A DNA stretch of 64,000 bases from Mucilaginibacter sp. JRF (GTDB lineage: Bacteria > Bacteroidota > Bacteroidia > Sphingobacteriales > Sphingobacteriaceae), in NCBI RefSeq assembly GCF_015223065.1, contig NZ_JADFBY010000003.1, forward strand, positions 1 to 64,000. The letters run 5' to 3'. How positions within the stretch are numbered: the first letter of the stretch is position 1; each line of letters starts with the position of its first letter. A program made the translations under genes and the position numbers. The notes beneath the pieces were generated by a model that saw nothing but the letters and a program-made list of their open reading frames with translations, did no database searches and was not told where the DNA came from. Below, piece after piece: positions 21,398 to 52,175 of this stretch.

Positions 21398-21427
21398 TTG
21401 CCAATGAAAATATAATCGATATTTTTG
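21398..21427 (+). promoter_or_regulatory. Promoter of the symporter operon
   Basis: TTG (21398-21400), 19 nt, TATTTTTG (21420-21427): an exact TAnnTTTG -7 box 27 nt before the ATG at 21455. Confidence 0.75.
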
Positions 21428-21454: not shown

Positions 21455-21661
21455 ATGTCACATAATCACCATTCACATAAACAAGAGGAAGAAGCTAAAA
21501 AACACGATTACATCTTTTTTATAGTAGCATTGATAAGCGGTATGTTTGTTGGCGCTATTGTTGACAGAGGCCTGATCTACATACCTGTTGGTGGTGTATT
21601 CGGTTTATTAACTGCCGCGGTATTTATTAAATTCCTGGTTAGAGGCCGTGAAAACGTCTGA
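21455..21661 (+). CDS. Small membrane protein, His-rich N-terminus
   Basis: A 68-residue protein with a His-rich start (MSHNHHSHKQEEEAKKHDY) and two membrane segments at about 19-36 and 42-62. Family not recognised. It directly follows a well-formed promoter and overlaps the 42-residue ORF by 14 nt, so three genes (68 aa, 42 aa, symporter) form one tight unit. It may be an accessory or assembly factor of the symporter; the histidines could bind metal. Confidence 0.75.
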   Translation: MSHNHHSHKQEEEAKKHDYIFFIVALISGMFVGAIVDRGLIYIPVGGVFGLLTAAVFIKFLVRGRENV

Positions 21662-21776
21662 TAATAACGGACTACCATCATTTATACGTAACTGGAACCA
21701 GTTTTACATCCTTGTGGGTGTTTGGCTGGTTCTTCTTATTTCTGTATTTTGGCTCACCACCAAAATATTTGAATGA
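21648..21776 (+). CDS. 42-residue single-span membrane protein (symporter partner candidate)
   Basis: A GTG-started frame of 42 codons. It begins 14 nt inside the preceding gene and its TGA overlaps the ATG of the symporter (ATGA at 21773). The product has a polar N-terminal half ending in FIRNWNQFYI and one strongly hydrophobic segment (LVGVWLVLLISVFWL). Overlaps at both ends make chance unlikely. Other symporters of this superfamily are encoded beside small membrane proteins (YjcH with ActP in E. coli), so an accessory role is inferred. Too short for usual gene callers. Confidence 0.6.
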   Translation: MKTSDNNGLPSFIRNWNQFYILVGVWLVLLISVFWLTTKIFE

Positions 21777-23482
21777 GCTTAACCGACTGGATAGTACTTG
21801 CCGTTACCCTGATTGCCATAATTGGCTATGGCCTGTGGAAAAGCGGCAGTAACAAAAACGTCGATCAATTTTTAGTAGGCAGCCGCTCGCTGCCCTGGTA
21901 CGCTGTAGGGCTTTCGGTAATGGCTACACAGGCCAGCGCTATCACCTTTCTTTCCGCTCCCGGCCAGGCTTATAGCGATGGAATGCGCTTTGTACAGTTC
22001 TATTTCGGGCTGCCCCTGGCCATGATTGTGCTGTGCATCACCTTTGTACCCATATTTCACCGGCTTAAGGTTTATACCGCGTACGAGTACCTGGAGCAAC
22101 GCTTTGATCTGAAAACACGGGTGCTTACCTCGTTCCTGTTTTTGATACAGCGCGGACTTTCAACGGGTATTACCATCTATGCGCCATCCATCATCCTGTC
22201 AACCATTTTACATATTGATATTACCTACACCACCCTTTTTATAGGCGGATTGGTAATTTTTTACACCGTTTACGGTGGCACCAAAGCGGTATCGTACACC
22301 CAAATGCTGCAAATGAGCATCATATTTTTAGGGATGTTTTTTGCCGGGGTTATGGTGGTAAGGTTATTGCCCGACAACGTTGGCTTTGTTGACGCGCTTA
22401 AGCTAAGCGGTAAGCTCGGCCGCATGAATGTGATAGACTGGAAGTTTGACCCCGACAACAGCTACAATGTTTGGAGCGGATTAATTGGCGGTTTCTTTTT
22501 ACAGTTATCCTATTTCGGTACCGATCAAAGTCAGGTAGGCAGATATTTGACCGGCAGCTCGGTAGCGCAAAGCCGCATGGGGCTAATCATGAACGGACTG
22601 ATCAAAATACCGATGCAGTTTTTGATATTGCTTATCGGGGTGCTGGTGTTCGCTTTTTATCAGTTTAATAAACCACCGGTATTTTTTAACAGTTACGAGG
22701 TTGACCAGGTAAAGAACAGCAGCTACGCACCACAATACAAAGCTATTGAGCAAAACCATGCCAGGGTATTTGAGCAGCGTAAGGTAGCGGCGCAAAACCT
22801 GTTATCGGCATTTGAGAGTGATGACGCGGATAAAATATCCTCAGCAAAAACCGAATTGAAAAAGGCTGATGCCGATGCCCTGCAACTTCGCCAACAGGCG
22901 GTAGACCTGATGAAGAAGAACAACGCCAAAGCTGATACCAACGATACCAACTACGTTTTTTTAAGCTTTGTTACCCAATACCTGCCGCATGGGCTGATAG
23001 GCTTGCTGATAGCCATTGTGTTTTTAGCATCGATGGGGTCGACAGCCAGCGCGCTTAACTCCCTGGCATCAACCAGTGTGGTTGATATTTACAAACGCGT
23101 AATAAACCCCAAGGTAAGCGACAAAGGCTACTTCAACGCTTCGCGATGGGCAACCGTGATTTGGGGTGTGGCCAGCATTGGCATGGCGCTGTACGCCGGC
23201 AAACTGGGTAACCTGCTTGAAGCGGTCAATCAGCTGGGATCATATTTATACGGTACCATATTAGGTGTATTTGTGGTGGCATTTTACCTTAAACGCATTA
23301 GCGGCACATCGGTATTTTGGGCAGCCATTATTACCGAAGCCATCATTTGCCTGATGGGATATTATGAGGTAGTGGCATACTTATGGTTGAACGCTATTGG
23401 GTGTATAGCTGTGGTGATTATAGCGACTGTATTCAATATGTTCAGCAAAGATCGTTCAGCGGGAGCTCCGGGTTATGAATAA
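21773..23482 (+). CDS. Sodium:solute symporter (SSS/SLC5 family)
   Basis: A 569-residue inner-membrane symporter of the LeuT-fold SSS family, with about 13 membrane segments and the typical early phrase VDQFLVGSRSLPWYAVGLSV. GTKAVSYTQMLQ marks helix 5-6, and ASMGSTASALNSLAST carries the sodium-site Ser/Thr residues of helix 8. Between about residues 305 and 400 a charged, helical loop (EQRKVAAQNLL, AKTELKKADADAL) is inserted, as in the sugar/SGLT-like Bacteroidetes subgroup. The 3' end overlaps the M20 hydrolase gene on the other strand by 41 nt. Substrate unknown. Confidence 0.9.
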   Translation: MSLTDWIVLAVTLIAIIGYGLWKSGSNKNVDQFLVGSRSLPWYAVGLSVMATQASAITFLSAPGQAYSDGMRFVQFYFGLPLAMIVLCITFVPIFHRLKVYTAYEYLEQRFDLKTRVLTSFLFLIQRGLSTGITIYAPSIILSTILHIDITYTTLFIGGLVIFYTVYGGTKAVSYTQMLQMSIIFLGMFFAGVMVVRLLPDNVGFVDALKLSGKLGRMNVIDWKFDPDNSYNVWSGLIGGFFLQLSYFGTDQSQVGRYLTGSSVAQSRMGLIMNGLIKIPMQFLILLIGVLVFAFYQFNKPPVFFNSYEVDQVKNSSYAPQYKAIEQNHARVFEQRKVAAQNLLSAFESDDADKISSAKTELKKADADALQLRQQAVDLMKKNNAKADTNDTNYVFLSFVTQYLPHGLIGLLIAIVFLASMGSTASALNSLASTSVVDIYKRVINPKVSDKGYFNASRWATVIWGVASIGMALYAGKLGNLLEAVNQLGSYLYGTILGVFVVAFYLKRISGTSVFWAAIITEAIICLMGYYEVVAYLWLNAIGCIAVVIIATVFNMFSKDRSAGAPGYE

Positions 23483-25393: not shown

Positions 25394-27079
25394 TTACCAG
25401 AACATGCTGTACAACGCAACCAATATACCGCCGATAAGCAGCGCACCCGCGGTAAAGGCCCTTGAGGTACGGAACATTGACGATTCGATCTCCAGTCCGT
25501 TGGTTTTTACACCTTTGGACTCATCAATTTTTGAGATGATGTACATACCCGTAACACATATCAGGAATACGAAACCCATACGATCAAGGAACGGTATTTC
25601 GTAAACGCCGGTACCGTTATCCTTTGCGAAACCGTAAGGCGCCATAAACGACAGGTCGGCCCAATAAGGCAGGAATTTGAATATTACCGAGAACACAAAG
25701 CCACCGATGGTTGAGAACAAGGCCGCGTTTGATGTAGTTTTTTTCCAGAAGAAACCCAGGATGAACATGGCGAAGATACCCGGAGATACAAAGCCTGTGT
25801 ACTCCTGTATGTATTGAAAACCTTGCTTACCCTCACCCATCAGCGCATCGCCAATTAACAGTGAAAGTATTACACCCAATACCATTGATACCACTACCGA
25901 CCATTTACCTAATGATACCAATTGCTTATCGGTAGCATCGGGCTTAATGGCTTTTTTGTAGATATCGAGCGTAAATATGGTTGCTATACTATTGGCCTTA
26001 CCCGCTAACGAGGCCACAATAGCTGCCGTTAATGCCGCGAACGACAAACCTTTTAAGCCCGAAGGCAGCAGGTTTAATAATGATGGATAAGCTTTATTAA
26101 CATCAACCACGCCTTTAGCGCTCAGCATCTCCTGCTGAAACATACCTTTTTGGTACAGGTAGTAAGCCGCAATACCCGGTAATACCACAATAACCGGCAT
26201 TAACAGCTTTAAAAACGCAGCGAACAATATACCGCCACGAGCCGTATTCAGGTTAGCACCCAGGGCACGCTGGGTAATGTATTGGTTACAACCCCAATAG
26301 TTAAGGTTGGTGATCCACATACCGCCTATCAGTACTGAAAGGCCCGGCAAATCCATATAGTTTGAATTCTCTTTGTTAAATATCATGTGGAAGTGATCAT
26401 TCACCTCGGTATGTAACACCTTCAATCCACCTAAAATACCGGTACTGCCTGATATGCTGTTGATTTGGCCGATAGCGAGGTAAGTAGCTACCAAACCTCC
26501 TAATATCAATACAAACACCTGTATAACATCGGTATAACCAATTACCTTCATACCACCCAGGGTAATGATTATAGAGAACGCTGCCAGCAAACCGATACAC
26601 AATTCCAGGTTTAAGCCTGATATACCGCTTACCGCCAATGCACCCAGGTACAGGATCGACATCAGGTTAACCACAATATACAGCAACAACCAAAACACCG
26701 CCATAATCATGGCTACGGTGCTGTTATACCGCTGGTGCAAAAACTGCGGCATGGTAAATATTTTATTGCGCAGGTATACCGGGATAAAAAATATAGCCAC
26801 AATTACCAGCGTGGCGGCGGCCATCCACTCGTAAGTTGAAATAGCCAAACCCATTTTAAAGCCCGAACCACTCATACCGATGAACTGCTCGGCCGAAATA
26901 TTTGAGGCGATCAATGAAGCGCCAATTGCCCACCATGTTAGTGATCCTTCGGCCAAAAAATAGTCTTTTGAAGTAGCGTCAGCGTTGTGTTTGCGTTTGT
27001 ACACCCAAAATCCGTATAGCGACACGACGATCAGGTACACAAAAAACACGGTGTAGTCACCGGTAGAAAGTGTTTTCAT
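25394..27079 (-). CDS. Sodium/sugar-type SSS symporter (vSGLT-like)
   Basis: A 561-residue symporter with about 14 membrane segments. Family marks are DYFLAEGSLTWWAIGASLIASNISAEQFIG split over helix 1-2 (the GSGFKMG phrase follows) and WGCNQYITQRALGA. The helix-8 sodium site reads AALTAAIVASLAGKANSIAT. The WWAIGASLIASNISAEQ region is typical of the vSGLT/SLC5 sugar group. Monocistronic: a terminator follows and 200 nt of AT-rich DNA precedes it. The transported sugar cannot be told. Confidence 0.9.
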   Translation of the reverse strand: MKTLSTGDYTVFFVYLIVVSLYGFWVYKRKHNADATSKDYFLAEGSLTWWAIGASLIASNISAEQFIGMSGSGFKMGLAISTYEWMAAATLVIVAIFFIPVYLRNKIFTMPQFLHQRYNSTVAMIMAVFWLLLYIVVNLMSILYLGALAVSGISGLNLELCIGLLAAFSIIITLGGMKVIGYTDVIQVFVLILGGLVATYLAIGQINSISGSTGILGGLKVLHTEVNDHFHMIFNKENSNYMDLPGLSVLIGGMWITNLNYWGCNQYITQRALGANLNTARGGILFAAFLKLLMPVIVVLPGIAAYYLYQKGMFQQEMLSAKGVVDVNKAYPSLLNLLPSGLKGLSFAALTAAIVASLAGKANSIATIFTLDIYKKAIKPDATDKQLVSLGKWSVVVSMVLGVILSLLIGDALMGEGKQGFQYIQEYTGFVSPGIFAMFILGFFWKKTTSNAALFSTIGGFVFSVIFKFLPYWADLSFMAPYGFAKDNGTGVYEIPFLDRMGFVFLICVTGMYIISKIDESKGVKTNGLEIESSMFRTSRAFTAGALLIGGILVALYSMFW

Positions 27080-51386: not shown

Positions 51387-52175
51387 CTATTTATAATTTG
51401 CTATTGCTTTATAAGCATTATACTGCTTTAATACGGATTCTATATATTTATCAACACCAGGTTTATTCCGGTGAGATATTATTTCTTTAGGTAGAAATAG
51501 CTTTCCTTTTCTAATAATGATTCCGGTTACCTCACAAGAATGTTTTCTGTAATGTATTTTTCTGTGATTAACAAAGAATCCATTTTGCTTCAAAGTCTCA
51601 AGTATTTGATTAGTATGCTTTTTAAAACACTCTATCGAGGAAAAAGTAAGGTCATCAACAAATACAGTAAAGGTGATATTTCTTTCTTTGCAAAACGTTT
51701 CTAAAAATTCAGCTGTTGACGAAAACACCAGATTGGCCAAAGTAGTTGAAGTAGGTGCACCTTGCGGTAGCGACCCTTTATAGGTAGTAAGATTTGTTAT
51801 AGCTCTGGCTTCATTCCAAGTAAAACCTCTACTAATTAAGGTTTGATGAACTTGTGAATTAGTGATATTATTAAAGAATCCTTTTAAATCCACAGTAAAA
51901 AAGAATCTGCCGCTAATATGTTCTAAAGCATTTACTACGTTGTTCCTTTCCGTTATTCCACCATACATACAATCAGGTATTTCCAAGTTTTTGAGCTGAT
52001 CATTTAATCCTCTTTGCAATACCTTTATATAATATACTGGCTTTATTATGTCACGCTTTTTAAATGAACCATCACTATTTTCCTGGGGGGTACCAAATTT
52101 CATTTTAGGCTGAGTCGTTTCCTGATAAAATTTACCGGGTGACTGTTGTAAGTGAGTGAATGTGGAACCTGGCAT
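51387..52175 (-). CDS. Retron-type reverse transcriptase
   Basis: A 262-residue reverse transcriptase. RT motifs in order: RDIIKPVYYIKVLQ (41-54), YGGI (71-74), FTVDLKGFF with Asp96, LPQGAPTS (136-143), the catalytic FVDD (172-175), GFFVNHRKIH (199-208) and EVTGIII, where VTG (216-218) is a mark of retron RTs. No maturase or endonuclease domain. Shorter than most retron RTs (about 300), with a short N-terminus; it begins 1 nt after the 77-residue ORF. More A+T-rich than its neighbours, suggesting transfer. Retrons act in phage defence; that role is inferred. Confidence 0.82.
   Translation of the reverse strand: MPGSTFTHLQQSPGKFYQETTQPKMKFGTPQENSDGSFKKRDIIKPVYYIKVLQRGLNDQLKNLEIPDCMYGGITERNNVVNALEHISGRFFFTVDLKGFFNNITNSQVHQTLISRGFTWNEARAITNLTTYKGSLPQGAPTSTTLANLVFSSTAEFLETFCKERNITFTVFVDDLTFSSIECFKKHTNQILETLKQNGFFVNHRKIHYRKHSCEVTGIIIRKGKLFLPKEIISHRNKPGVDKYIESVLKQYNAYKAIANYK

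Follow-up and report, generated by a model that had tools for sequence, protein, structure and literature searches.

The genes for a 68-residue protein and a sodium:solute symporter in Mucilaginibacter sp. JRF are bridged by a GTG-initiated frame encoding only 42 residues. This raises the question of whether so short a frame is a gene and, if it is, whether its product is a partner of the symporter. The window analyzed here is the whole 64,000-nt stretch of contig NZ_JADFBY010000003.1 (positions 1 to 64,000) that contains these genes. An earlier note on this DNA had described the frame as overlapping its neighbors by 14 and 4 nt and as encoding one membrane helix, and had suggested a new type of accessory subunit. 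The ORF coordinates agree with both overlaps, the first covering 21648-21661. Hydropathy and AlphaFold2 each give a single helix, the one hydrophobic stretch reaching a Kyte-Doolittle maximum of 2.58 (17-residue window). A hydrophobic ORF of 30 to 60 residues ending at the start of a long ORF was found for 2 of the 39 long ORFs in the window; by position alone the small frame is uncommon, not unique. The other case is a 49-residue hydrophobic frame on the minus strand at 52175, 1 base before a 263-codon ORF.

Features of the locus, with positions in the window
Feature	Position	Strand	Remarks
PIG-L-type deacetylase, 835 aa	16284-18791	+	2.7 kb before unit
MacB/FtsX-type permease, 801 aa	18937-21342	+	between PIG-L gene and unit
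Candidate promoter	21398-21427	+	TTG at 21398, TAnnTTTG at 21420-21427
68-residue two-helix protein, first gene of unit	21455-21661	+	
Small single-helix membrane protein gene	21648-21776	+	GTG start, 42 aa; proposed accessory subunit
Predicted TM helix of small protein, codons 16-40	21693-21767	+	W16 first, Y20 inside; AlphaFold2, pLDDT 83
ATGA, small-frame stop over symporter start	21773-21776	+	
Sodium:solute symporter (SSF), 569 aa	21773-23482	+	PF00474, TIGR00813
Symporter TM2, residues 72-98	21986-22066	+	72 couples to small-protein residue 38; 85 to 23/24
Symporter TM5-TM6 loop with short helix, residues 198-232	22364-22468	+	couplings to small protein: 206 with 41, 218 with 37, 220 with 38
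Symporter helical hairpin between TM7 and TM8, residues 307-383	22691-22921	+	AlphaFold2

Selection on the frame was analyzed in 37 genomes of the same genus, JRF included, of which 28 carried the symporter ortholog (loci L001-L028). A broken frame beside a retained symporter in close relatives, which the earlier note had named as the contrary observation, was not seen. The small frame was kept, free of stops, in all 28 loci, whereas the other two forward frames contained stops in 26 and 28 of them. Differences at codon positions 1, 2, and 3 numbered 2469, 1897, and 4867, and the median dN/dS was 0.20 (334 pairs). In one locus (L026), the small frame ends with a TAA adjoining the ATG instead of in ATGA. 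Two loci from other families (L029 and L030) retain the small gene without the 68-residue gene. Judged by its sequence, the 42-residue frame is a real gene, because it is unbroken in 28 same-genus loci, has a dN/dS of 0.20, and has homologs at the symporter start.

Of the proposed three-gene unit, the small frame and the symporter are the constant part, but the 68-residue gene is found almost only in the window's family: homologs occurred in 71 of 415 loci (E<1e-3), nearly all in that family, and three of the matches (L121, L308, and L314) seem to be unrelated to it. The 68-residue protein is His-rich and conserved within the window's family; as the second small gene of the unit, it likewise gave no match above cut-off in Pfam or NCBIfam. 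For the promoter, a sigma-70 scan returned 6 promoters against 7.0 expected, which is not above chance. The TAnnTTTG motif, which we take to be the Bacteroidota -7 element, lay within 75 nt of the 68-residue gene's start in 27 of the 27 same-genus loci with enough upstream DNA, compared with 78 of 2000 random stretches. Elsewhere, the commonest upstream neighbor is the PIG-L gene (54 of 80 loci from named hosts and 260 of 349 loci paired for the coupling analysis below). PF02585 matched two full-length PIG-L copies and did not match four terminal fragments. The PIG-L end lies only ~0.35 kb before the symporter start in several same-genus relatives, so the MacB/FtsX gene of the window looks like an insertion into an old cluster. 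Downstream of the symporter, 34 of the 80 named loci (L192, for example) share a convergent gene, always from one family, whose start resembles a secretion signal.

The earlier note had proposed looking for the same small frame before orthologous symporters. We did so with a profile seeded from the same-genus, L029, and L030 sequences and then iterated, using locus sets that partly overlap in their genomes. The profile matched in 149 of 169 loci, every time directly before the symporter, with no match elsewhere among 14,138 segments. It also matched in 78 of 80 named loci and in 161 of 166 family- and order-level loci, where 4 more fell just below threshold and none was off-position. The homologs are 30 to 57 residues long with one helix, and W16 and Y20 are kept in 98% and 99% of them. 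Among the 20 loci of the first set that the profile missed, 10 have a diverged one-helix frame recognized by eye (L144, L146, L148, L149, L151, L153, L154, L157, L158, and L161), 3 carry it at a different genomic site (L137, L164, and L168), and 7 lack it (L032, L038, L039, L103, and L141-L143). Named hosts include Mucilaginibacter, Pedobacter, Sphingobacterium, Chitinophaga, Dyadobacter, and Pontibacter. Hosts outside Bacteroidia are two Acidobacteriota bins (L222 and L249), a Calditrichia bin (L248), and a Melioribacteraceae bin (L232). Ten symporters had no detectable small partner: L032, L038, L039 (a 44% paralog), L103, L141-L143, L229 (an Aminicenantes bin), L233, and L379. The small protein is thus not absolutely required. 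In L141-L143, three genomes of one genus without the small gene, the PIG-L stop overlaps the symporter start by ATGA.

Co-occurrence was then analyzed in 395 Bacteroidota genomes (symporter, E<=1e-100; small protein, E<=1e-3). The symporter was present in 143 genomes, nearly always as a single copy, and the small protein matched in 131. Both occurred in 129 genomes, the symporter only in 14, the small protein only in 2, and neither in 250 (Fisher p 7e-85, a nominal value given that the genomes are related). Several of the 14 symporter-only genomes have a diverged small frame. One small-only match (G414) is a false positive, a different, two-helix protein that is presumably PLDc_N-like. The other small-only genome (G085, locus L256) has intact PIG-L and small genes and a fragmentary symporter, possibly a case of decay in progress. 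Four genomes of one genus (G084, G110, G096, and G156; loci L251-L254) carry an intact small gene ~15 kb from the symporter, and a fifth, G330, carries one ~108 kb away. The displaced gene in L251-L254 adjoins a gene that we take to be WbqC-like and a convergent transporter gene. The source genome has one copy of the small gene against nine SSF-type matches, and no such small frame precedes the start of the second SSF gene in the window (25394-27079). The small gene follows one symporter ortholog genome-wide, as a near-obligate companion. G349 holds a second small gene and symporter copy near a contig start (L133/L395; C1:21555), in which several stops interrupt the symporter, whereas its small gene is unbroken and matches the other copy exactly. 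No fusion of the small protein to the symporter was found; the sole long frame (G159, 885 aa) is a PIG-L gene whose TGA lies just before the small ATG.

The symporter scored 132.4 bits against PF00474 (cut-off 22.8) and 239.5 bits against TIGR00813 (cut-off 184). Its AlphaFold2 model (pLDDT 92.6, pTM 0.90) has 13 transmembrane helices by our count, TM0 to TM12, and no TM13. The best Foldseek match was SiaT (5nva; E 5e-20, TM-score 0.89 by target). The family profiles and the LeuT-type fold of the SSS kind place the protein in SSF/SSS (SLC5 fold), and its nearest solved relatives by sequence are the SLC5 iodide, monocarboxylate, multivitamin, and glucose transporters. The hairpin between TM7 and TM8 (77 residues) is predicted with high confidence and varies between relatives. 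From the neighboring gene, one might guess at a substrate such as an amino sugar or a related product of PIG-L.

Contact between the two proteins was addressed by mean-field direct coupling analysis of 349 small protein-symporter pairs (effective number 176). Symporters whose first 330 residues were identical were removed ahead of pairing, and loci that gave no small-protein hit within the threshold were omitted as well; the couplings thus describe loci having the gene. Symporter residues 304-388, the variable hairpin, and small-protein residues 1-8 were left out of the runs. The strongest couplings (small protein-symporter) were 37-218 (3.13), 38-220 (2.06), 23-85 (1.75), 41-206 (1.64), and 28-233 (1.42); by comparison, the pair ranked third inside the symporter scored 3.09. 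When partners were swapped between near neighbors, the best coupling was 1.14 to 1.29 over six runs, and swaps between the two nearest neighbors (mean identity 83%) gave 1.08 to 1.40 over five. The PIG-L C-terminus served as a control partner at the 261 loci with a PIG-L end, with its most variable columns used; it gave at most 1.43, compared with 2.92, 1.89, and 1.62 for the small protein at the same loci. The first four couplings exceeded all 11 swaps and the PIG-L control, and the fifth, 28-233, was no better than the controls. In four half-sets, 37-218 ranked first, first, third, and first and was the only coupling stable in every one, 38-220 being within the first eight in two and 23-85 in one. 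The letters at 37 and 218 trade size, F occurring with L, T, or A and I with M. Both 37-218 and 38-220 were common to the first run (218 pairs) and the 349-pair run; several other couplings of the first run (28-129, 42-416, and 14-125) vanished with more data, and only the larger run is drawn on here. From this covariation, the small protein probably touches the symporter.

The most conserved residues of the small protein (W16, Y20, I31, F34, T38, V23, and F41) lie on one face of the helix. The moment of this face points to 37 degrees, and none of 10,000 permutations was equally strong. The four coupled residues sit on this conserved face, at 4 degrees, and 3.4% of random four-residue sets were as clustered. 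Lysine plus arginine counts were higher before the helix in 255 of 331 homologs, lower in 4, and equal in 72, from which excess of positive charge an N-in/C-out orientation is predicted. The TM5-TM6 loop of SSS transporters is periplasmic by established topology. With the helix N-in/C-out, the C-terminal residues 37, 38, and 41 would meet this loop and residue 23 would meet TM2 residue 85. Residue 23 lies 15 positions deeper than 38, and symporter residue 85 lies 13 positions deeper than 72. Read this way, the couplings fit a helix standing beside TM2 and the TM5-TM6 loop.

We consider it likely, on this comparative evidence, that the small frame encodes an accessory subunit of the adjoining symporter. 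Phylum-wide co-occurrence, retention at a distance, and coevolution lend weight to the earlier idea of a new accessory subunit, the association itself being what we infer from these patterns. The same locus structure could be read as a translational coupler, in which ribosomes finishing the small frame start the symporter and the peptide is of little weight. The 4-nt overlap at 84 of 149 loci, with +4 also the most frequent spacing among the later loci (95 of 161), favors such a device, and cbrX-cbrA provides a precedent (PMC6591292). However, a coupler alone would not account for selection on the amino-acid sequence, for the conservation of W16 and Y20, or for the coevolution of small-protein residues with the symporter. 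The gap moreover exceeds 10 nt at 12 of 149 loci, and five genomes retain the gene 15 to 108 kb away, where coupling is impossible. We regard coupling as the whole explanation as unlikely; alongside a subunit role it may well operate.

An interaction with the symporter might instead serve to inhibit it or to promote its turnover. Like MgtR or MntS, the small protein would then bind the symporter and lower its activity or deliver it to a protease. Such a negative regulator or turnover adaptor would draw on the same computed binding evidence, and a review describes small transporter-binding proteins with such effects (PMC10710835). Yet joint production from an overlapping unit is more in keeping with a subunit than with a conditional inhibitor. 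Under this reading, symporters that have lost the small gene should be common, but they are rare; a regulator of this kind seems distinctly improbable. Finally, the small protein might serve the PIG-L enzyme, the 68-residue protein, or the membrane without contacting the symporter, as a mere operon neighbor. The frequency of PIG-L upstream fits this, but the small gene also occurs where PIG-L is lacking, stays with the symporter through changed surroundings, and couples to symporter residues where PIG-L does not. A linked function of this sort is very hard to credit.

As an accessory subunit, the small protein would be made in step with the symporter through the ATGA overlap and, going by its charges, would insert with its N-terminus in the cytoplasm and its C-terminus in the periplasm. 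The coevolving positions suggest that a face comprising W16, Y20, V23, L27, F34, T37, T38, and F41 would pack against TM2 and the periplasmic TM5-TM6 loop. By analogy with MAP17 and SGLT2, its most likely role is to help the symporter fold, assemble, or stay stable, support that would thereby sustain transport activity.

That SSS transporters can have small partners is already known: YjcH with ActP (DUF485), DUF3311, and DUF4212 are such partners in bacteria, and they are longer proteins with two helices. The acrZ gene, encoding a small partner of another transporter, is not adjacent to acrB. The family described here likewise consists of small membrane proteins encoded beside an SSS transporter, but it has one helix (residues 16-40) and no profile match to those families. 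In searches at E<=1 with 30 and with 75 members, DUF485/YjcH, DUF3311, and DUF4212 were absent among the families listed (in one of the 75-member searches, the first 25 of 45 weak ones), and 75 diverse members gave none above cut-off among the Pfam and NCBIfam families listed. Weak matches to DUF2976, TIGR03745, and YqfD were far under their cut-offs (TIGR03745/DUF2976, 13.6 bits against 52.5 for the window's member) and had only hydrophobic letters in common. A 30-member profile searched against PDB chains, SGLT-MAP17 entries included, at E<=10 returned no MAP17 and only FlaL2 (E 6.5). A search confined to open-licence papers found no description of the family. On these sequence comparisons, the one-helix family with its own predicted docking site is new, and neither Pfam nor NCBIfam includes it. 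SSS small partners have been known singly; here a one-helix partner accompanies a single symporter across much of the phylum, and its docking site is predicted at residue level. Assays or structures of the symporter should express it together with the small partner.

Known systems resemble this pair in part. In Sinorhizobium, DUF3311 adjoins MctP and is co-regulated with it, according to one study (PMC9100948). AcrZ is a 49-residue helix bound along AcrB, as a review outlines (PMC10710835); it is similarly a small helix protein on a transporter, which in that case is an RND pump whose substrate range is changed. The Pseudomonas putida cbrX is a small membrane ORF overlapping by 17 nt the start of cbrA, a gene with a 13-helix SLC5 domain; it differs in its 58 residues, its two predicted helices, its histidine kinase partner, and its role in translational coupling (PMC6591292). 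A likeness in form is offered by MAP17 (PDZK1IP1), a one-helix partner of SGLT2 and SGLT1 (SLC5) that is required for SGLT2 activity (PMC10803289, PMC9616851, PMC10203128). Those papers propose that it works via folding, stability, or surface expression, and it is described as moving little between states (PMC9616851, PMC10203128). Both helices are single-helix partners of transporters of the same superfamily and fold, whereas their sequences are unrelated and their kingdoms and gene organization differ. MAP17 docks on TM13 of SGLT2 (PMC10803289, PMC9616851), but the symporter model here lacks TM13, and it is TM2 and the TM5-TM6 loop that the couplings implicate; the small helix may thus occupy the place of TM13. 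A bolder and rather doubtful extension is that this SSS ortholog group forms a two-chain machine, a 13-helix symporter with a fourteenth helix in trans, filling the place of TM13 in SGLT-type transporters, the helix on which MAP17 acts in humans. It would extend over the Bacteroidota and into a small number of Acidobacteriota, Calditrichia, and Ignavibacteria genomes, with a helix gene of 30-57 residues. The pair would offer an easily manipulated bacterial counterpart to the question posed by SGLT2 and MAP17, how one helix makes an SLC5 transporter work.
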